A stretch of DNA of 64,000 bases from Bacilli bacterium. GTDB taxonomy: Bacteria > Bacillota_I > Bacilli_A > RF39 > UBA660. Within the stretch, counting starts at the first letter, position 1. Each line of letters starts with the position of its first letter. The DNA is taken from NCBI GenBank assembly GCA_017527675.1, contig JAFXPU010000024.1, positions 62,001 through 126,000 on the forward strand. The letters are read 5' to 3'. A model generated the notes under the pieces. That model made no database searches and was not told where the DNA came from. It saw nothing but the letters and a program-made list of their open reading frames with translations. Shown in pieces: positions 2,889 through 18,519 of this stretch. The translations under genes were made by a program, and so were the position numbers.

Positions 2889-3959
2889 ATGTTTTTTAAA
2901 TCTATTCATAAACGTCTTAAAATAATTGGTATTATAATTACATTTTTATTTTTATTAATTATTTTTAAAGTATTTTATATTCAGTTTTTTTCTTATAAAA
3001 AATTAAATAAATTAGCTTCTAGTTTATGGAATAGAAATTTACCAATTGAAGCTAATAGAGGAAATATTTATGATAGAAATGGTAATGTTTTAGCAGGCAA
3101 TATTACAACTACATCTTTAGTTTTAATTCCAAATCAAATAAAGAATAAAGAATTAACTGCTCAAAAATTAGCTGAAATATTAAATGTATCATATGACGAA
3201 ATGCTAAAACATGTATCAAAGAAGACATCTATTGAACGTGTTCATCCTGAAGGTCGAAGATTATCTTATGAAGTTGCCGATCAAATAAAAGAATTAAATT
3301 TAGATGGTGTTTATTTAGTTAAAGAAGCTAAAAGAGACTATCCAAATCAAGAATTACTTGCTCACACATTAGGTTTTGTTGGTATTGATAATCAAGGTTT
3401 AGCTGGTCTAGAACTTATTTATGATAAATATCTTACAGGTTCAAATGGAGCTATTAAGTATTATGCTGATGCTAAAGGGAATAATTTAGCTTATGCATCT
3501 AAATATGTTAAACCACAAGATGGTATGAATATTACTCTAACAATTGATTTAGATATTCAAAAGTCCTTAGAAAGAGAATTAGATAATGCTATTACTAAAT
3601 ATAATCCTGATGGTGCTTGGGGAATAGTAATGGATCCTAATAATGGAGAAATTTTGGCAATGGCTTCACGTCCTTCTTTTAATCCAACTAATTATCAAGA
3701 ATATGATAAAGAAAGCATTAATAGAAATGTACCTATTTGGATGACCTATGAACCGGGTTCGACTTTTAAAATCATTACTCTTGCAGCTTCCTTAGAAGAA
3801 AAGACAATTGATTTAAATGATCATTTTTTTGATTCAGGTTCAATTAAAGTTGGAGGAGCAACATTGCATTGCTGGCGTCATGGTGGTCATGGCGAGGAAA
3901 CATATTTAGAAGTTGTTGAAAATTCTTGTAACCTAGGTATCAGGCGAGAGATACAATAA
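2889..3959 (+). CDS. SpoVD/FtsI-type penicillin-binding protein, 5' part, interrupted by the element
   Basis: This is the N-terminal part of a class B PBP, the septal or spore peptidoglycan transpeptidase. It has a membrane anchor at about residues 12-32 and the RGNIYDRNG dimerisation-domain motif at 57-65. The catalytic SxxK motif is STFK at 291-294 and the SxN motif is SCN at 346-348. True PBP sequence ends at Asn348. The last eight residues, up to the stop at 3957-3959, are read from the inserted element. The KTG box and the PASTA domain lie 13.7 kb away at 17659-18519. As it stands the product lacks the KTG motif and should not be an active transpeptidase. An AGGTG site precedes the ATG. 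Position near mraY and ftsW marks it as part of a division cluster. Confidence 0.9.
   Translation: MFFKSIHKRLKIIGIIITFLFLLIIFKVFYIQFFSYKKLNKLASSLWNRNLPIEANRGNIYDRNGNVLAGNITTTSLVLIPNQIKNKELTAQKLAEILNVSYDEMLKHVSKKTSIERVHPEGRRLSYEVADQIKELNLDGVYLVKEAKRDYPNQELLAHTLGFVGIDNQGLAGLELIYDKYLTGSNGAIKYYADAKGNNLAYASKYVKPQDGMNITLTIDLDIQKSLERELDNAITKYNPDGAWGIVMDPNNGEILAMASRPSFNPTNYQEYDKESINRNVPIWMTYEPGSTFKIITLAASLEEKTIDLNDHFFDSGSIKVGGATLHCWRHGGHGEETYLEVVENSCNLGIRREIQ
3930..3938 (+). other. Left attachment-site core (attL)
   Basis: AACCTAGGT is matched by AACCCAGGT at the right end, with one central mismatch. In the PBP frame the right copy gives Asn-Pro-Gly, which fits the family's usual SCNPGF. The left copy gives Asn-Leu-Gly. 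The chromosome therefore probably supplied AACCC and the crossover dinucleotide lies left of the mismatch, in AACC. This position is inference. Confidence 0.75.
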
Positions 3960-9365: not shown

Positions 9366-11519
9366 ATGAAAAAGAAAAAGAAAATTTTAATTCTCGTTAT
9401 AATGTTAAGTTTATTATCACTTACTGCTATAACTACATATTCAAGATATGCAAAGACAGTTACTAAAACTGGAACTATTGCAACTGCTGATGTTGGATAT
9501 TGCCAAATTAATGGAATAACATCTTTTAAGGAATGTCTGATAAGAAATGATAGTCAACAATCACTTTCTTTAGCTTTAAATACAATTGATACAAGAACCA
9601 GTTTACTTAATTTGAATAACATAGAACCAGTTAATGCTTATGTTCCTAAAACAACATATACTAATGTAACAAACAAAACAAATACAACTGCTATGACTTA
9701 TACTAATGCTAATAGATTTACATATGTTGTTGAAAATAAATTAATTACTGAATTTGATGTTGATGATGCAGATATAACTAAAATAACATTTAATCCAACA
9801 ACTGGTTATTATACATATACAGGTTCTACAACAGGTAGTATGAATGACCTTATAACTACTGCTACTGACATGGAGAATGGTATATATAAATATACTTGTT
9901 TAAATACAACTACAAATGGTAATTGTACTTCTTTATTCTTGTTTACTGAAGAACCATATTTAATATCAGGCTATTATAGATTTAAACAAGGTTATACTTA
10001 TTCATTTACGGTTACTGGTACATCTACTTCTAATGCAGGTCTTTATAAAGGAGAAGACGATTATACAGTTGACTCAAATACATATACATATTTTTATCGT
10101 GGAGATGTAAATAATAACTGGGTTAAATTCGGTAATTATTTATGGAGAGTTGTTAGAATAAATGGTGATGGTTCAATAAGAATGATTTACTCTGGTCTTG
10201 CTAGTGGTTCTAGTCATACTGGAAGTAATGCTCAAATTAAAACTTCTGCATATGGAGATACTCAGTCATTTACTGCAACAACTACTGATTTATATGATTC
10301 AAGTCAAACTATTACAACGACTTATTCAAATGGTAGATATGGAAATACAAATGTTGGTTATATGTATAATCCTGCTAAAATAATTAGTGTTTATCCAAAT
10401 AAAACACCTGATAATACAACAGTTAATAGATTAAATTATTTTCCAACTTTTATAAACATATCAAATACAACTAACTATTATTTCTTCAAAAATTTTGATC
10501 CAAGTACAGATTGTTTTACAGGAAGTGATTCTGATGAGTCTGGTGCATGTACATTAAAATGTAGAAGCAAAGGAAATGATGGAGATAGTGGTATAGATTG
10601 CATTCAAAGTAATTGGAATACACTTGCTACTACATCAGGTAATTATAGTGATTCTGCTGCAGGTATTTATCCAGCATCAAATCCATCTCAATACATTTAT
10701 ACAAGTGATTATAAATATACTTGTTGGAGTTATGGAACTCCTGTTACAAAATCCAATGGAGATGGAACAACAAGTGTTTATATAACTTGTCCAGTTGTAT
10801 CTGAAATAGTTGGTACAGTAAAAAATCAACCTACTCAAGCTAAAGTAAAATATCATGGACTATTTTCAGCAGATGCAACAACTGCAAATACAAATGTAAA
10901 AGATAGTAAGATTAAATCTGAGGTTGATTCGTGGTATGCAACAAATATATTAAATGCTAATGATGGAAATGGAAATGCTTTAGAAGATTATTTATCTGAT
11001 GAAATATTCTGCAATGATAGATCCTCAACAAGTACAGATTTCCCATTAGTTAATGGTGGTTCTTATTTATATGGTCCATATAGTAGAAATACTGCTGCAA
11101 ATAGAGTTCCAAGTTTTCGATGTCCAAATAAGAGTAATGATGCATTTACTTTAAAAACTTCAGGAGGAGTAAGTAGTGTAACTGCAAGTGGAGATGGTAA
11201 TAATAAACTTACTTATCCAGTTGGTTTAATTACAATAGATGAAGCAGCTTATGCAGGTGGTAAAAATGGTTCTATGAACTATAAATATTACCTTTATACT
11301 GGGGCTTATTACTGGACAATGTCGCCGTCTCACTTCAATTCGAATCCTGCGAACGCGATCGTCTGGATCGTCCATTCCGCTGGCAACCTGTCTAATACTA
11401 ATTCGGCGACTGCGTACGGTGTCCGCCCAGTTGTCAATCTGAACTCTGATGTTCTGTATTCTGGTGGAACTGGAACGGAGTCGGATCCATATATAATTAC
11501 ACTACCTAATGGATCGTGA
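9366..11519 (+). CDS. DGR variable protein: large secreted protein with C-terminal C-type-lectin-like domain
   Basis: 717 residues. A SipW-type signal ends near TYSRYAKT (about residue 30). A Thr/Asn-rich region of about 200 residues follows. Then comes a long domain starting near WVKFGNYLWRVVRINGDGS (about 245) and ending GVRPVVNL, the closing strand of the formylglycine-generating-enzyme or C-type-lectin fold used by DGR targets. Residues 652-688 are encoded by the variable repeat. Eleven codons there differ from the template, and all are amino acid changes. The last 30 residues (GGTGTESDPYIITLPNG) complete the fold. Its place at the end of a SipW/TasA operon suggests display on the fibre as a binding tip. 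Confidence 0.93.
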   Translation: MKKKKKILILVIMLSLLSLTAITTYSRYAKTVTKTGTIATADVGYCQINGITSFKECLIRNDSQQSLSLALNTIDTRTSLLNLNNIEPVNAYVPKTTYTNVTNKTNTTAMTYTNANRFTYVVENKLITEFDVDDADITKITFNPTTGYYTYTGSTTGSMNDLITTATDMENGIYKYTCLNTTTNGNCTSLFLFTEEPYLISGYYRFKQGYTYSFTVTGTSTSNAGLYKGEDDYTVDSNTYTYFYRGDVNNNWVKFGNYLWRVVRINGDGSIRMIYSGLASGSSHTGSNAQIKTSAYGDTQSFTATTTDLYDSSQTITTTYSNGRYGNTNVGYMYNPAKIISVYPNKTPDNTTVNRLNYFPTFINISNTTNYYFFKNFDPSTDCFTGSDSDESGACTLKCRSKGNDGDSGIDCIQSNWNTLATTSGNYSDSAAGIYPASNPSQYIYTSDYKYTCWSYGTPVTKSNGDGTTSVYITCPVVSEIVGTVKNQPTQAKVKYHGLFSADATTANTNVKDSKIKSEVDSWYATNILNANDGNGNALEDYLSDEIFCNDRSSTSTDFPLVNGGSYLYGPYSRNTAANRVPSFRCPNKSNDAFTLKTSGGVSSVTASGDGNNKLTYPVGLITIDEAAYAGGKNGSMNYKYYLYTGAYYWTMSPSHFNSNPANAIVWIVHSAGNLSNTNSATAYGVRPVVNLNSDVLYSGGTGTESDPYIITLPNGS
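11320..11430 (+). repeat. DGR variable repeat (VR)
   Basis: 111 bp within the 3' end of the 717-residue gene, aligned without gaps to 11622-11732. The two differ at 13 positions. At each of them the template has A and this copy has C, T or G. No other base differs. It ends in the GC-rich stretch GTGTCCGCCCAG, the place where the initiation-of-homing sequence is expected. Confidence 0.97.
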
Positions 11520-11523
11520 TAAT

Positions 11524-11553
11524 CGTGTGGTAATGACTCTTCATTACCACACG
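11524..11553 (+). promoter_or_regulatory. Perfect 13-bp hairpin downstream of the VR
   Basis: CGTGTGGTAATGA pairs with TCATTACCACACG around the 4-base loop CTCT, five bases after the target-gene stop. There is no T-run, so it is a weak terminator candidate. In the Bordetella phage DGR a hairpin or cruciform just downstream of VR is needed for retrohoming. This one lies 93 bases from the VR end and may have the same role. Confidence 0.6.
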
Positions 11554-11621
11554 CAAAATTAATTTTGGGATATATAAGATATATATCTTGGTTGATCTGA
11601 TATAAATTGCAGTGTGCCGTG

Positions 11622-11732
11622 TGTCGCCGTATAACTTCAATTCGAATAATGCGAACGCGAACGTCTGGAACGTCAATTCCACTGGCAACCTGAATAATAA
11701 TAATTCGGCGAATGCGAACGGTGTCCGCCCAG
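11622..11732 (+). repeat. DGR template repeat (TR)
   Basis: 111 bp, same orientation as VR. Read in the target frame it is rich in AAY codons at the variable positions, and one further A-containing codon, TAT, is changed too. AAY codons let adenine mutagenesis reach many amino acids without stops. About 33 of 111 bases are A and 13 of these are changed in the present VR. It is GC-rich compared with the DNA around it. Confidence 0.97.
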
Positions 11733-11951
11733 ATTCCTACTACAAATTAGTAATATAGTACTAACTAACCGAGATTTATAGGGCTAAGGCTCGTAAACAG
11801 AGGAAGTAATAATACTTTTAGCAGGTATTATGGTCTATAGATTGATAGATTGGAAACAAGATTGACCATGAAATAATTTTATTTCTAAATATATAATACT
11901 AGACGAAGTTAGACAATAAAGAAATATTTTTTAACTTCTATTGCTGTATTG

Positions 11952-11985
11952 AGCAGGAGAAGAAATTCTCCTGCTATATTTTTGT
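11952..11985 (+). terminator. Hairpin with GAAA tetraloop at the end of the template RNA
   Basis: AGCAGGAGAA pairs perfectly with TTCTCCTGCT around GAAA and is followed by ATATTTTTG. It could end the template RNA or limit read-through into the accessory genes, whose ribosome-binding site follows directly. Confidence 0.7.
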
Positions 11986-11998
11986 AAAGGAGGAGATT

Positions 11999-12400
11999 AT
12001 GAAAGAAAAATATGAAATACAAAAAAATGAAAATTTGCAAAGTATTATATTAATTAAATCTGGTAATTTCTATGCCACGATTAATGATGATTCATTTATT
12101 ATGAAGAAATTATTTAACTATCAAATTATCAAAGGGAAGGTGGGATTTCCATTAAATGCTATTGATAAAGTTAAAAGTAGGTTGAATGATTTAAGGGTAA
12201 ATTATCTAATCTATAATAGTGAAGATGATATTGATAAACAAGTATTTGATGATAACACCTACAATGCAATATTAAATGAATATAAAAAGCAAGAATATAA
12301 AGATAATATGAAAAAATTATTGTTTGATAGAATAGAGTACTTGATAAATGATAATTCAGATAATTATGATAAGATAAGGAAGTTTGTGGATGAACTCTAA
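11999..12400 (+). CDS. MutS domain I-like DGR accessory protein (MSL-type)
   Basis: 133 residues. The first 80 follow the pattern of the mismatch-recognition domain I of MutS: IKSGNFYATINDDSF matches the GxFYexFxxDA segment. VGFPLNAIDKVKSRLNDL matches the GVPxxxxxxyxxxL segment. The Glu of the MutS Phe-x-Glu motif is replaced by Ala, so base-mismatch reading as in MutS is unlikely to be intact. The C-terminal 50 residues are charged and helical. Small MutS-like genes are known near some DGR reverse transcriptases. It has a strong AAAGGAGG site and overlaps the next gene by 11 bases. Confidence 0.72.
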   Translation: MKEKYEIQKNENLQSIILIKSGNFYATINDDSFIMKKLFNYQIIKGKVGFPLNAIDKVKSRLNDLRVNYLIYNSEDDIDKQVFDDNTYNAILNEYKKQEYKDNMKKLLFDRIEYLINDNSDNYDKIRKFVDEL

Positions 12401-12740
12401 TTTTTTCTTACTAAATAAATGTTATCAAACAATAGAATATTATAATAAAAGACTTATTAATTATCCAAAGCGTGAAATGTTATTAAAGCAAAATATTGAA
12501 AAGACTTATTATGAAATGATAGAGTGCTTATTTTCTTTTAATATAAATAATAGTGAAAGAATTAAACAAAAATATTTAAAGGATTTTTTAGTTAAAGTAT
12601 CTATGCTTGATTTTTATACAAGAATTAGTAATTTAAAAAAAGTTATTAGTAAAAGACAGTTTGAAGTCATTGGAAATAGAATTACTGAACTTCGTAAAAT
12701 GGCTTATGGATTAATCAAAAATGAAAAAGTCGAGGATTAA
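12390..12740 (+). CDS. avd: Avd-type DGR accessory protein (four-helix bundle)
   Basis: 116 residues, all helical by pattern and basic, the size of the Bordetella Avd. The C-terminal helix reads ITELRKMAYGLIKN, similar to the RxxxxGW-type end of four-helix Avd proteins. Avd forms a pentameric barrel that binds the reverse transcriptase and the template RNA. The ATG at 12390 follows AAGGAAG at good spacing. It lies between the MutS-like gene (11-base overlap) and the reverse transcriptase (20-base overlap). This is the expected place for avd. Confidence 0.82.
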   Translation: MNSNFFLLNKCYQTIEYYNKRLINYPKREMLLKQNIEKTYYEMIECLFSFNINNSERIKQKYLKDFLVKVSMLDFYTRISNLKKVISKRQFEVIGNRITELRKMAYGLIKNEKVED

Positions 12741-13854
12741 CTTATTCAATTATGATAATTTATTAGATATTTATAAATTACTAGATATCTATAATAGAAT
12801 TAAAAGTAATTGTAAGCATAAAGATAAAATATTTAAGTTTGAAATGTTTCAATCATCCTATATAACTGAAGTGCTTGGTGTATTAAGAAGTAGGAAATAT
12901 AACCATGGTAAATATAACATTTTTATAATATTAGAACCAAAAAGTAGAATAATAATGAGTGAAAATATGGGAGATAAAATAATTAATCACTTATTAAGTC
13001 ATTATGTTTTGTTTCCATTAATCGAACCTATGTTAATTGATGCTAATGTGGCAACTAGAACTGATAAGGGAACAAAAGCGGGTATTTATTACATGAAAAA
13101 GTATATTAATTCAATGAAACAAAAACATAATAAATTTTATGTCTTGAAATGTGATGTATCAAAATTTTTTTATCAAATAGACCATGAAATATTATTAGAA
13201 AAATTGAAAGGTATCATAGTAGATGAAGATATATATAATTTAACTGAAGAAATTATAAATAGTACAAATTATTCATATTTAGGAGAAACTATAAAAGATT
13301 TGATTTCAAAAAGAAAAGAATATATTAGTAAGTTAAAAATATCGGAAAATGAAAAAAAGCTAAAATATGAAGAGTTAGATAGAATACCTCTATATGATTT
13401 TAATAAAGGATTACCGATTGGAAATATGTCCTCACAAATATTTGCAATTTTTTATTTAAATGACTTGGATCATTATATAAAAGAAAAACTGAAAATAAAG
13501 TGTTACATAAGGTATATGGATGATCTAATTTTAATACATGAAGATAAAGAGTATTTAAAATATTGTTTAGAAGAAATTGATAAGAAAATTGAAGAAGTTA
13601 GATTATCATTAAATTCTAAAACACAAATAACCGAAATACATGATGGTGTTAGTTTTTTAGGATATAAATTTATTTTAAAAAATAATAGATTAAATATGCT
13701 AATTAGTTCTAAGGCTAAAAGAAGGATGAATAGAAAACTAAAAACAATAAAAAGAAAAGAGAGAACGGAGTTCTTAAGAAGAAGATATAATGGTTATTTA
13801 GCTTATGGAGATACTAGAGGATTTATGCATAGTAAATCTTGGAAAAAATTTTAG
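12721..13854 (+). CDS. DGR reverse transcriptase
   Basis: 377 residues. Motif A is VLKCDVSKFFYQIDHEIL. The group-specific box GLPIGNMSSQIFAIFYLNDLD has the GLPIGNxxSQ form of DGR enzymes. The catalytic YMDD box is IRYMDDLILI. The thumb-side segment GVSFLGYKFILKNNRLN is also present. There is no maturase or endonuclease domain, as is normal for DGR enzymes. It copies the template RNA with adenine misincorporation and feeds the cDNA into the variable repeat. It starts within the end of avd without a clear ribosome-binding site, so translation is probably coupled. Confidence 0.97.
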   Translation: MKKSRINLFNYDNLLDIYKLLDIYNRIKSNCKHKDKIFKFEMFQSSYITEVLGVLRSRKYNHGKYNIFIILEPKSRIIMSENMGDKIINHLLSHYVLFPLIEPMLIDANVATRTDKGTKAGIYYMKKYINSMKQKHNKFYVLKCDVSKFFYQIDHEILLEKLKGIIVDEDIYNLTEEIINSTNYSYLGETIKDLISKRKEYISKLKISENEKKLKYEELDRIPLYDFNKGLPIGNMSSQIFAIFYLNDLDHYIKEKLKIKCYIRYMDDLILIHEDKEYLKYCLEEIDKKIEEVRLSLNSKTQITEIHDGVSFLGYKFILKNNRLNMLISSKAKRRMNRKLKTIKRKERTEFLRRRYNGYLAYGDTRGFMHSKSWKKF

Positions 13855-15193: not shown

Positions 15194-15235
15194 TAAAAAA
15201 ATGTCGGGTATATACCTAAAATGTGTTATAATTTT
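15194..15235 (+). repeat. 42-bp direct repeat, right copy: promoter of the recombinase operon
   Basis: It is a near-identical copy of 4747-4788. It contains the perfect palindrome GGTATATACC (15207-15216) and TATAAT at 15227-15232. There is no good -35 box, so it may depend on an activator. It is divergent from regulator 2, a classic position for an operator. Confidence 0.8.
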
Positions 15236-15289
15236 TAAAAGGAGGTCAATATACATAATTTTAATTTAAAACATTGTTTACACATACTA

Positions 15290-15565
15290 ATGAAGAGTGT
15301 TATAATAACAGCACTTATAAGTCCAATTTTATTGTTGATTTTTTATTTAGTTAAAATGGATTTCCGTTTTGCTACTTATGTTTGTAAAATTTGTAATATA
15401 CTTGAAGATTTAGCAATAACTGTTATGAGTCCGGGATTTGCAAATAATATAATTATTTTAAGTTTGGTTTTTGAGTTTGGTTTAGGATGTTGGTTAATAA
15501 CTAAATTAACTAAAACTAAACTATTTAATAATATTAAAAATTTTATTGAAAACTTAATATTTTAA
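15290..15565 (+). CDS. Small membrane protein of the recombinase operon
   Basis: 91 residues from the ATG at 15290, with two membrane segments (about 4-20 and 58-75) and a loop with two Cys. I do not recognise the family. The only good ribosome-binding site, AAGGAGG at 15239-15245, lies 6 bases before an in-frame ATA at 15251. The real start may therefore be that ATA, adding 13 residues, or the gene may have lost its start codon. It is the first gene after the 42-bp promoter repeat. A role in the element, for example as a holin-like or exclusion protein, is only a guess. Confidence 0.5.
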   Translation: MKSVIITALISPILLLIFYLVKMDFRFATYVCKICNILEDLAITVMSPGFANNIIILSLVFEFGLGCWLITKLTKTKLFNNIKNFIENLIF

Positions 15566-15577
15566 ATAATGATTTAT

Positions 15578-15688
15578 AAGGGGGTACTCTTTCTCATTAA
15601 GAAAATATTGGGTTTCAAATATATCGAAAAAAGTTGGAACTCAATATTTGAGTTCTTTTTTTCGTAAGAACTTAATAAGCTTAATGAG
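15578..15688 (+). promoter_or_regulatory. Transcription attenuator before the recombinase genes
   Basis: A strong terminator (GAACTCAA, 3-base loop, TTGAGTTC, then seven T; 15637-15662) lies between the membrane-protein gene and the recombinase genes. The segment 15603-15618 can pair over 16 positions, two of them G-U, with 15634-15649. This would consume the left arm of the terminator and act as an antiterminator. CTCATTAAG (15593-15601) also pairs with CTTAATGAG (15680-15688), which sits against the ribosome-binding site of the next gene. A leader frame of 23 codons from an ATT at 15596, after AAGGGGG, runs through the whole structure. Translation of it may set the fold. Confidence 0.65.
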
Positions 15689-15700
15689 AGGAGGGATATT

Positions 15701-15895
15701 TTGGAATTTGCAGAAGAATTAGAAACTTATACAAATACAAAAGAATTACCGAAAGAGTACCTCATATTAAAATTAAGAATATCTTTAAATAAAGATTTAT
15801 ACGAAAGTAAAGTTATTACATATGATATATATAATATAATGCAACAACTATTATTTAAAAAGATGGATAAAATGATTTTAGAACATAAAAAATAG
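15701..15895 (+). CDS. Small protein preceding the serine recombinase
   Basis: 64 residues from a TTG that follows GAGGAGGG by 5 bases. The product is charged and helical, with no membrane segment. Small helical proteins directly ahead of large serine recombinases often serve as partners or directionality factors, but nothing in the sequence proves that here. It lies 22 bases before the recombinase start and is controlled by the attenuator. Confidence 0.55.
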   Translation: MEFAEELETYTNTKELPKEYLILKLRISLNKDLYESKVITYDIYNIMQQLLFKKMDKMILEHKK

Positions 15896-15917: not shown

Positions 15918-17675
15918 ATGAATATAATAAAAGTTAGGCAAGAACTAGCAATGGGTAAAAACATATATGATATGCCATTACGAGTTGTTGATTATGGTAG
16001 AGTATCTACTGATAAAGATGAACAATTAAACTCATTAACTAATCAAGCTAATTATTTTAATGATATGATAGATGGAATAAAGAATTGGAATCATGTTGGA
16101 TCTTATGCAGATGAAGGTATAAGTGGAACACAGGTATATAAAAGAGAAGATTTTTTAAGAATGATAGAAGATGCAAGACTTGGTAAGTTTGATATGATTG
16201 TTACAAAAGAAATATCTAGATTTGCTCGTAATACTATTGATAGTATTAAATATACTCAATTACTTTTAAGTTATGGAGTAATAGTATTTTTTATATCAGA
16301 TAATATTAATACCATAAATCCAGATAGCGAATTTAGATTAACATTAATGGCAAGTATGGCACAAGATGAAGTAAGAAAACTTTCTGAAAGAGTTAAGTTT
16401 GGTATTAGAAGAAGTATAAAAGATGGAAAACTTGGCGGTGGCAATCTTTATGGTTATAACAAAAAAGATTGTGTATTAACTATAAATGAAGATGAAGCAA
16501 AAGTTGTAAAAAAGATATTTGAACTTTATGCATCAGGAGAATATGGATTTACTAAAATTGGAGAAATGTTAGCAAATGAAGGACATTATACTAGAGCAGG
16601 TAAAGTATTTAGTATGCCAACATTAAAGAAAATGATAAGAAATCCAAGATATAAAGGTTGGTTTACTGCTAATTTAAGTGAAGTGGAAGATTATAAAACG
16701 CATAAAAAAATAAATAAACCAAGAGAAGAATGGATTATGTATAAAGATGAAAGTGGTAGAGTTCCTGCAATAATAGATGAAGAATTGTGGGATAAAGCAA
16801 ATCAAGTTCATAATGAACGAATGAGTAAGTGGAACAAAAATGTTTTAAATAAAGAGTTTTATTTAGAAAATAGAAACTATACATCAAAGATATTTTGTAT
16901 GGAACATAATACAACTTTTATTCGTTCGGCATCTTGTAAAAGAAAAGAAAATCCAGTATGGCAATGTAATGAATTTTTAAGACATGGTATTAAAGGTTGT
17001 GCTACTCCAAGATTATTTGAAAAACACCTTGATGAAATATTTGCAACAATGCTTGAAAAAATAGTAGATAACCGTGATGAAATATTAAATAGTATAACTA
17101 ATGATTATGTTAGTTTAATTAAAGAAAGTAATAATAGTTATGATGTAGATAATTTAAAAGCAAAATTAAGAGAACAACAAACATTAAAAGATAGACTATT
17201 AGATATGTCATTAAGAAATATGATTAATGATAATGAATTTATGGAAAAGAATAAATCTATAAGTGATGAGATAGCATCATTAAATAAACAAATATTAGTA
17301 ATAGAAAGTAATAAAGAATCAACTGCATATTATGATAAAATAGTTGAACAAATAAGAAATGAATTAAAACCTAAATTAGATATAAGAAAGAATATTGGAA
17401 AATATTTTAATCTATTTATAGATAAAGTTTTTGTAAGTAAGATAGATAATGATAGAAAACATATTAAATTACAAATGATTTTTAACTTTAAAAGAGAAGA
17501 TGAAGAAATAGAAATTCACCAAAGGAACAATTCTAATGGAACAGGATCGGATAATTCAAAAAATGAAAAAACCCTTATAAATCAAAGAGATTACAATGTT
17601 AGAGTATCGTTTGATACTAATTATTTACGACAAAAGTATCTCTTGCTTAATGCCCAGCAACCCAGGTTTTGTTAA
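15918..17675 (+). CDS. Large serine recombinase (site-specific integrase/excisionase)
   Basis: 585 residues. The resolvase domain has the catalytic Ser30 in YGRVSTDKDEQ and the Arg-rich KEISRFARNT segment. The recombinase domain follows at about 170-270 (GGGNLYGYNKK to RNPRYKGWF). A zinc ribbon at about 325-365 uses Cys residues in KIFCMEH, ASCKRKE, WQCNE and KGCATP. A long coiled coil spans about 395-455. This is the expected architecture for integrases of this class. The reading frame runs through the right att core and stops 8 bases inside PBP sequence. The last residues (RFC) are therefore encoded by the host gene. In the circular form the frame would continue for about 87 more residues. 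Confidence 0.96.
   Translation: MNIIKVRQELAMGKNIYDMPLRVVDYGRVSTDKDEQLNSLTNQANYFNDMIDGIKNWNHVGSYADEGISGTQVYKREDFLRMIEDARLGKFDMIVTKEISRFARNTIDSIKYTQLLLSYGVIVFFISDNINTINPDSEFRLTLMASMAQDEVRKLSERVKFGIRRSIKDGKLGGGNLYGYNKKDCVLTINEDEAKVVKKIFELYASGEYGFTKIGEMLANEGHYTRAGKVFSMPTLKKMIRNPRYKGWFTANLSEVEDYKTHKKINKPREEWIMYKDESGRVPAIIDEELWDKANQVHNERMSKWNKNVLNKEFYLENRNYTSKIFCMEHNTTFIRSASCKRKENPVWQCNEFLRHGIKGCATPRLFEKHLDEIFATMLEKIVDNRDEILNSITNDYVSLIKESNNSYDVDNLKAKLREQQTLKDRLLDMSLRNMINDNEFMEKNKSISDEIASLNKQILVIESNKESTAYYDKIVEQIRNELKPKLDIRKNIGKYFNLFIDKVFVSKIDNDRKHIKLQMIFNFKREDEEIEIHQRNNSNGTGSDNSKNEKTLINQRDYNVRVSFDTNYLRQKYLLLNAQQPRFC
17659..17667 (+). other. Right attachment-site core (attR)
   Basis: AACCCAGGT is the partner of 3930-3938. 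PBP coding sequence resumes here in the frame that continues the 5' part. The recombinase frame also crosses the site, in a different register. Confidence 0.75.
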
Positions 17676-18519
17676 TATGGGTTTAAAATTAGGGAAAGAA
17701 ACTTTATTTAAATATATTGATAATTTTGGTTTTGGTCATAAGACCGGCGTTGAATTAAATGGCGAAGAAAATGGTATTATATTTGATATTAATAAAATAG
17801 GGGATTTAGAACTAGCTACAACGGCTTTTGGTCAAGGTGTATCTGTTACTCCAATACAGCAAATAACAGCTGTATCAGCAGCTATTAATGGGGGAATATT
17901 ATATCAACCGCATATTGTTAAAAGTATTAATGAACCAGAATTAAATAATGTAATATTAGATACGGAAATAAAAAAAATAAGACAAGTTATTAGCCCAGAA
18001 ACGAGTAAGCAAGTTAGATATGTTTTAGAAAGTGTTGTTGCTAAAGGTACAGGTCATAATGCCTATATTCCTAACTATCGGGTTGGTGGTAAGACAGGTA
18101 CTGCTCAAAAGGTTAATAATGGTGCTTATATGACTGGTAATTATATAACTTCTTTTATTGGTTTTATGCCAGCTGATGATCCTAAAATAGTTGTTTATAT
18201 TGCTGTTGATAATGCTAAAGGAGTAACTCAATATGGTGGAACTATAGCTGCTCCTATTGCTAAAAATGTTTTACTCGATTCTATAAATATTTTAAATATT
18301 GAACCAAGAGATAATGAAATAGAAAAAGAATATGTTTATTTAGATAAAGTTTATAGTGATATACCTAATGTTATTGGTATGAATTATGATGAAGCTAAAA
18401 ATAGTTTAAAAAATTTTAAAGTATTAAAAATTGGAGAGGGAACTGTTAAATATCAGAGTCCTAAAGCAGGTATTAAAATTGAAACTGGAACCGAAGTAAG
18501 GCTTTTTTTATCAAGTTAA
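17659..18519 (+). CDS. SpoVD/FtsI-type penicillin-binding protein, 3' part
   Basis: It encodes the rest of the transpeptidase domain from Asn348 on, with the KTG motif in VGGKTGTAQKVN. A single PASTA domain follows at the C-terminus (IPNVIGMNYDEAKNSL to GTEVRLFL). PASTA domains bind peptidoglycan and are found in SpoVD and Pbp2x-type proteins. An in-frame ATG lies 9 bases ahead, but there is no ribosome-binding site. A separate product is thus unlikely while the element is in place. Joined to 2889-3929 it gives 633 residues, close to the normal family length. Confidence 0.92.
   Translation, partial: NPGFVNMGLKLGKETLFKYIDNFGFGHKTGVELNGEENGIIFDINKIGDLELATTAFGQGVSVTPIQQITAVSAAINGGILYQPHIVKSINEPELNNVILDTEIKKIRQVISPETSKQVRYVLESVVAKGTGHNAYIPNYRVGGKTGTAQKVNNGAYMTGNYITSFIGFMPADDPKIVVYIAVDNAKGVTQYGGTIAAPIAKNVLLDSINILNIEPRDNEIEKEYVYLDKVYSDIPNVIGMNYDEAKNSLKNFKVLKIGEGTVKYQSPKAGIKIETGTEVRLFLSS

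Follow-up and report, generated by a model that had tools for sequence, protein, structure and literature searches.

A covarying leader RNA with mutually exclusive folds, a candidate transcription attenuator, precedes serine recombinase genes in integrative elements of Bacilli

The window, the whole stretch of 64,000 nucleotides of Bacilli DNA analysed here, carries an element of ~13.7 kb inserted in a penicillin-binding protein (PBP) gene (transpeptidase/PASTA), which is split into 2889-3937 and 17659-18519 and holds a probable attachment core at either junction (Table 1). Relatives with this recombinase lie in the same PBP gene wherever both sides are visible, and because several related elements share it, excision would restore the gene. 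In locus L025, two distinct serine-recombinase elements seem to be inserted in the PBP gene, each at its own codon and one of them inverted. The cargo of the window's element includes a diversity-generating retroelement (9366-13854) with a bAvd-like gene at 12384, a reverse transcriptase gene at 12721 and a long gene, the putative target, whose product has a DUF6273-like C-terminus. The operon at the right end encodes a 64-aa accessory protein, whose AlphaFold model gave no significant PDB match, followed by the large serine recombinase. We rejected the leader upstream of this operon as a recombination (att) site, since the element ends in the PBP gene and relatives with the same recombinase sit in that gene as well.

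A sequence-only reading of this DNA had placed an attenuator-like switch at 15578-15700, in front of the recombinase operon, and the structures it described were found. The strong intrinsic terminator T consists of a stem at 15637-15655 (GAACTCAA/TTGAGTTC) and a U-tract reaching 15662, and terminator-like sites in the region number 2, compared with 0.1 ± 0.3 in shuffled sequences. Its left arm is shared with the proposed alternative helix P2 (15603-15618/15634-15649), which comprises 16 pairs including two G-U pairs; the shared strand, C2, thus belongs to two helices that are both conserved with covariation. The outer pair, CTCATTAAG (15593-15601) with CTTAATGAG (15680-15688), does end beside the ribosome-binding site of the next gene, AGGAGG following directly after 15688, and in the minimum free energy fold it lengthens into this Shine-Dalgarno (SD) sequence (P1 in Table 1). 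Folding of the 161-nt region yields -39.1 kcal/mol, whereas 200 dinucleotide shuffles average -25.4 ± 3.2 kcal/mol and none of them is as good (z -4.3). That no known riboswitch motif is present was borne out by an Rfam search of the leader, in which nothing reached the gathering score and the lower-scoring matches were at chance level. The minus strand at 15637-15655 also has a U-run after the terminator stem, so T may work both ways. Two further candidate features were discarded. A pairing between the leader motif GGTACTCTTT and AAAGAGTACC, which lies in the 64-aa gene, is lost in L077, where the leader motif persists in front of another small ORF; the P1 extension accounts for the motif. 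A third repeat copy after the terminator (GAACTTAATA) is not conserved across subfamilies.

The competing strand is supplied by P0 and its loop C1 (15543-15569), which lie outside the segment first described. The order from 5′ to 3′ is P0 left arm, C1, P0 right arm, P1 left arm, A, C2, TR with the U-tract, and P1 right arm with the SD. C1 is complementary to A, the left arm of P2, at -11.5 kcal/mol in the window and at -12.0 kcal/mol on average in the set (-2.7 kcal/mol with a shuffled arm), and the C1:A duplex spans 11-17 bp in nearly all members and is coupled to T in the predicted ensemble. Besides the right arm of the terminator, C1 is the most conserved stretch, with a mean majority-base frequency of 0.94 compared with 0.79 for A and C2. 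The P0 duplex has a mean of -8.35 kcal/mol in the set, with 0/5000 permutations as good, and only -1.4 kcal/mol in the window, where it is broken because ORF104 runs into the leader in place of the conserved upstream gene.

Table 1. Features of the recombinase operon, its leader and the ends of the element (positions in the window).
Feature	Coordinates	Strand	Basis or remark
Probable left attachment core AACCTAGG in PBP gene	3930..3937	+	PBP gene split here; relatives' elements in same gene
Promoter/operator-like stretch TGTCGGGTATATACC...TGTTATAAT	15203..15233	+	common to ORF104 homologues (sequence comparison)
ORF104, gene upstream of leader	15251..15565	+	homologues in 26/291 genomes; window Ile1 aligned on homologues' Met1
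P0 hairpin	15543..15569	+	weak in window (5′ arm replaced); 11-15 bp in most relatives
C1, P0 loop GAAAACTTAATATTTT, complementary to A (anti-antiterminator strand)	15548..15563	+	duplex energy
Short frame of the sequence-only reading	15569..15667	+	not conserved; ATG 15569, ATT 15572, stop 15665-15667
P1 left arm	15586..15601	+	pairs with 15680-15695; arm swap 0/5000
A, left arm of antiterminator P2	15603..15618	+	pairing, arm swap, pair counts
C2, right arm of P2, overlapping left arm of T	15634..15649	+	pairing, arm swap, pair counts
T, intrinsic terminator with U-tract	15637..15662	+	96.6% of alignment cells paired; terminator-site scan
P1 right arm, including SD AGGAGG	15680..15695	+	SD unpaired probability 0.12 in folded read-through transcript
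64-aa helical accessory protein, first operon gene, TTG start	15701..15895	+	homologues found; AlphaFold pLDDT 82.6
Probable right attachment core AACCCAGG	17659..17666	+
Large serine recombinase	15918..17675	+	Pfam Resolvase, Recombinase, Zn_ribbon_recom

The stop codon of ORF104 (15563-15565) lies inside C1, its last codons, GAA AAC TTA ATA TTT TAA, being C1 itself. At 15251 the gene has ATA where its homologues have ATG, after a good SD, so that AUA may serve as the start codon or be a mutated one; translation of ORF104 is uncertain because the window offers no normal start codon. Its putative promoter is flanked by an XRE-type repressor gene, and a second promoter-like site, TTTACA-18-TATAAT, lies at 15277-15306. 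The fusion of ORF104 to the leader may be functional or an accident. Most relatives instead have a conserved gene of 141-183 aa directly upstream, absent at this place in the window, whose stop typically falls 23-26 nt before C1; its product matched nothing in Pfam, had no significant PDB match and gave no hint of RNA binding. A ribosome at the stop of this gene would just reach P0 and leave the predicted outcome unchanged. On the long IMG/VR contig L101 the genes before the conserved gene were read, from their sequence alone, as encoding an ATPase of the coupling-protein type, a helicase-like protein of 2129 aa and a protein of 103 aa, an order suggestive of the end of a conjugation operon. 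In L004 an 11-codon frame after GGAG has its end inside C1.

Protein and RNA-model searches recovered more than 25 further leaders, all of them on two IMG/VR contigs or in genomes of the Bacilli family to which the window belongs, and order- and class-level genome samples gave no leader match outside that genome family. The two contigs, L102 and L101, had been held out of the RNA model and scored 112 and 100 bits, respectively, compared with at most 24 bits for chance matches. The recombinase motif was found downstream in 30/33 loci tested; of the other three, L082 is cut off by the end of its contig, L104 matches in part, and in L023 tblastn detects the recombinase. Wherever enough DNA follows the leader, a small ORF and a large serine recombinase lie 3′ of it. 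These small ORFs fall into at least three unrelated families; conservation is thus stronger for the RNA than for the protein encoded just after it. The leader is degenerate in L018, L082 and L103, and the terminator region alone is kept in some relatives, for example L005, L020, L024 and L025, in which homology starts inside the leader, a repeated module boundary. In a second group of accessory ORF and recombinase (L059, L062 and L066), the small ORF is immediately preceded by a conserved terminator of another kind, AAGAACAATAATGTCTAGTTTTGACTTATTGTTCTTTTTTT. A description of this leader RNA was not found in the part of the literature covered; a screen of RNAs from the human microbiome (Genome Biology 2021) reports 28 candidates in the neighbourhood of integrase, sortase or phage domains, which stood outside the sequence comparison.

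Pairing was assessed with an alignment-free arm-swap test, in which native arm pairs are compared with permuted partners (5000 permutations over 20 sequences). The native energies of P0, P1, P2 and T beat 5000/5000 permutations, and in a set of 10 sequences below 80% identity, 0, 5, 1 and 162 of 20000 permutations, respectively, did as well. P2 is the helix whose lack of covariation was to count against the sequence-only reading; its own partners were better in 5000/5000 and 19999/20000 permutations. In a 24-sequence alignment, 83.8% of cells are paired compared with 77.9% after shuffling, and double-change cells number 87 compared with 43. By these comparisons the four helices covary. The C1:A swap test is weak because C1 hardly varies (210/5000 and 552/20000 permutations). 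In L103, held out of the model, a C-to-U change in C1 and a G-to-A change in A occur together, and C1:A is kept at -7.3 kcal/mol as P2 falls to -2.7 kcal/mol; this double change, a single case, argues that C1:A is selected for itself. Comparison and calculation thus give good support to an RNA family with these helices, mutually exclusive folds and a constant place before recombinase genes, and in this respect the attenuator-like switch first proposed here holds up.

In ensembles computed at equilibrium, which take no account of pseudoknots or of co-transcriptional kinetics, P0 occurs together with P2, and C1:A together with T. In most members a few kcal/mol at most separate these two sets, and the predicted default state varies between members. 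Blocking the 5′ arm of P0 is predicted to yield T in 22/22 non-degenerate members, and blocking C1 to raise mean P(P2) from 0.60 to 0.86, with P2 favoured in most members. For the window, placing a ribosome at the ORF104 stop shifts the predicted P(P2) from 0.001 to 0.997.

These predictions lead us to favour, with a probability of about 0.6, a cis-acting transcription attenuator that works by trp-type strand competition, with P0 as a lock and the ribosome on ORF104 as the trigger in the window. Pairing of C1 with A would free C2 to pair with TR, giving termination (off); pairing of A with C2 would prevent the terminator and give read-through (on); and an intact P0 would lock C1 in its loop, favouring read-through. 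In relatives, the leader would follow an upstream operon and precede the integration genes, and would there set the share of upstream transcription that continues into the recombinase. In the window, with P0 lost to the gene fusion, termination is the predicted default, and a ribosome finishing ORF104 would mask C1 and permit read-through, so that recombinase transcription would follow ORF104 translation. Regulation as such, its direction in cells and its trigger are what we infer from this structure. The sequence-only reading went on to excision or integration as the regulated outcome; the comparison shows a conserved structure in a position to control the recombinase operon, and control of excision or integration itself is a step that we infer. 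Of the triggers it named, ribosome position is the best candidate in the window, acting through ORF104 and its end in C1 and not through the short ATT frame.

The leader is not a simple on-switch, as P1 is predicted to hide the SD of the first gene while P2 turns transcription on. The unpaired probability of the small-ORF SD is 0.00-0.32 in all freely folded read-through transcripts, and the recombinase keeps its own ribosome-binding site; with its SD hidden by P1, the small ORF would therefore be withheld in the on-state, which would carry the recombinase frame, unless P1 is opened. That one RNA couples recombinase transcription to a loop-locked anti-antiterminator, withholds the adjacent small protein and so sets the ratio of recombinase to a possible directionality partner is a doubtful extension.

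In relatives outside the window, the best rival is a trans-acting factor, either an RNA-binding protein of the element or host or an antisense RNA, that reads the C1 loop and thereby chooses the fold. C1 is more conserved than pairing alone requires, because G-U pairs tolerate changes in A, and the 141-183-aa gene of most relatives usually stops just before the loop. Its product, however, gives no hint of RNA binding (see above), the window lacks it at this place, and antisense promoter-like sites occur at chance level only, so that we regard a trans-acting factor as a serious possibility that falls short of even odds. Rather unlikely is a fixed attenuator or insulator that lowers upstream read-through by a constant fraction, its alternative helices merely tuning the terminator. 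Terminator-only relatives exist and Tn916 terminators serve as insulators (PMC11658703), but diverse elements retain the competing strands, with covariation, and L103 changed C1 and A jointly (C-G to U-A), with C1:A kept and P2 lost. The terminator/antiterminator layout with a conserved loop would also suit a small-molecule riboswitch; such a switch is improbable, as beyond C1 there is no compact conserved aptamer core or Rfam match, and the conservation of C1 is largely explained by complementarity to A. The short frame (15569-15667) exists and spans the structure in the window as the sequence-only reading said, but ribosome sensing through it is very improbable, since its length, frame and sequence are not conserved (it ends after 2-44 codons in relatives) and no ribosome-binding site was seen for it. 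Chance inverted repeats, conceivable in AT-rich DNA (GC ~23%), are refuted by the z-score, the covariation and the held-out matches.

Outside a few models, little is understood of the way in which integrative elements hold recombinase expression at a low level but in readiness. The window offers a natural experiment: exchange of the upstream module has eliminated P0 and brought a stop codon into C1, the switch strand. Replication genes of pT181 and pIP501 are controlled by antisense-RNA attenuators, in which a 5′ stem-loop with an exposed loop lies upstream of a terminator. The leader shares the stem-loop, the exposed loop and the downstream terminator; it would control recombination rather than replication, and the antisense transcript is a feature of the pT181/pIP501 type. 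With the E. coli trp-type attenuator the leader shares four strands and the pairing order 1:2, 2:3, 3:4, and in the window also an upstream reading frame that ends in strand 1 (C1). It differs in its extra hairpin P0, which locks strand 1 in a loop, in that the upstream frame in the window is a whole gene instead of a short leader peptide with diagnostic codons, and in that its antitermination fold also hides the SD of the next gene. Upstream frames differ among the relatives and no conserved leader peptide with diagnostic codons was found in them, for which reason we do not file the leader as a trp-type member. Ribosome-mediated attenuation is known in Bacilli from bmrB-bmrCD of B. subtilis (PMC4191407).

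Control of mobile elements by termination and antitermination is itself known, from Tn916 and pLS20, by parts other than those of this leader. In pLS20-type conjugation operons, terminators inside the operons are likewise bypassed under control, by a bipartite antitermination system that needs an element-encoded protein and an RNA (PMC8955417), whereas no such pair was identified for the leader. In Tn916, termination and antitermination likewise control genes of an integrative element, but canT, a processive RNA of about 340-450 nt, exerts its effect on terminators far from it (PMC11658703); the antiterminator of the leader overlaps its own terminator, before the recombinase genes, a layout that argues against a canT-like processive antiterminator. 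The Tn916 study predicts termination and antitermination in other elements (PMC11658703), and the leader is a covarying RNA family of uncultured gut Bacilli at the predicted place, with a four-strand logic.
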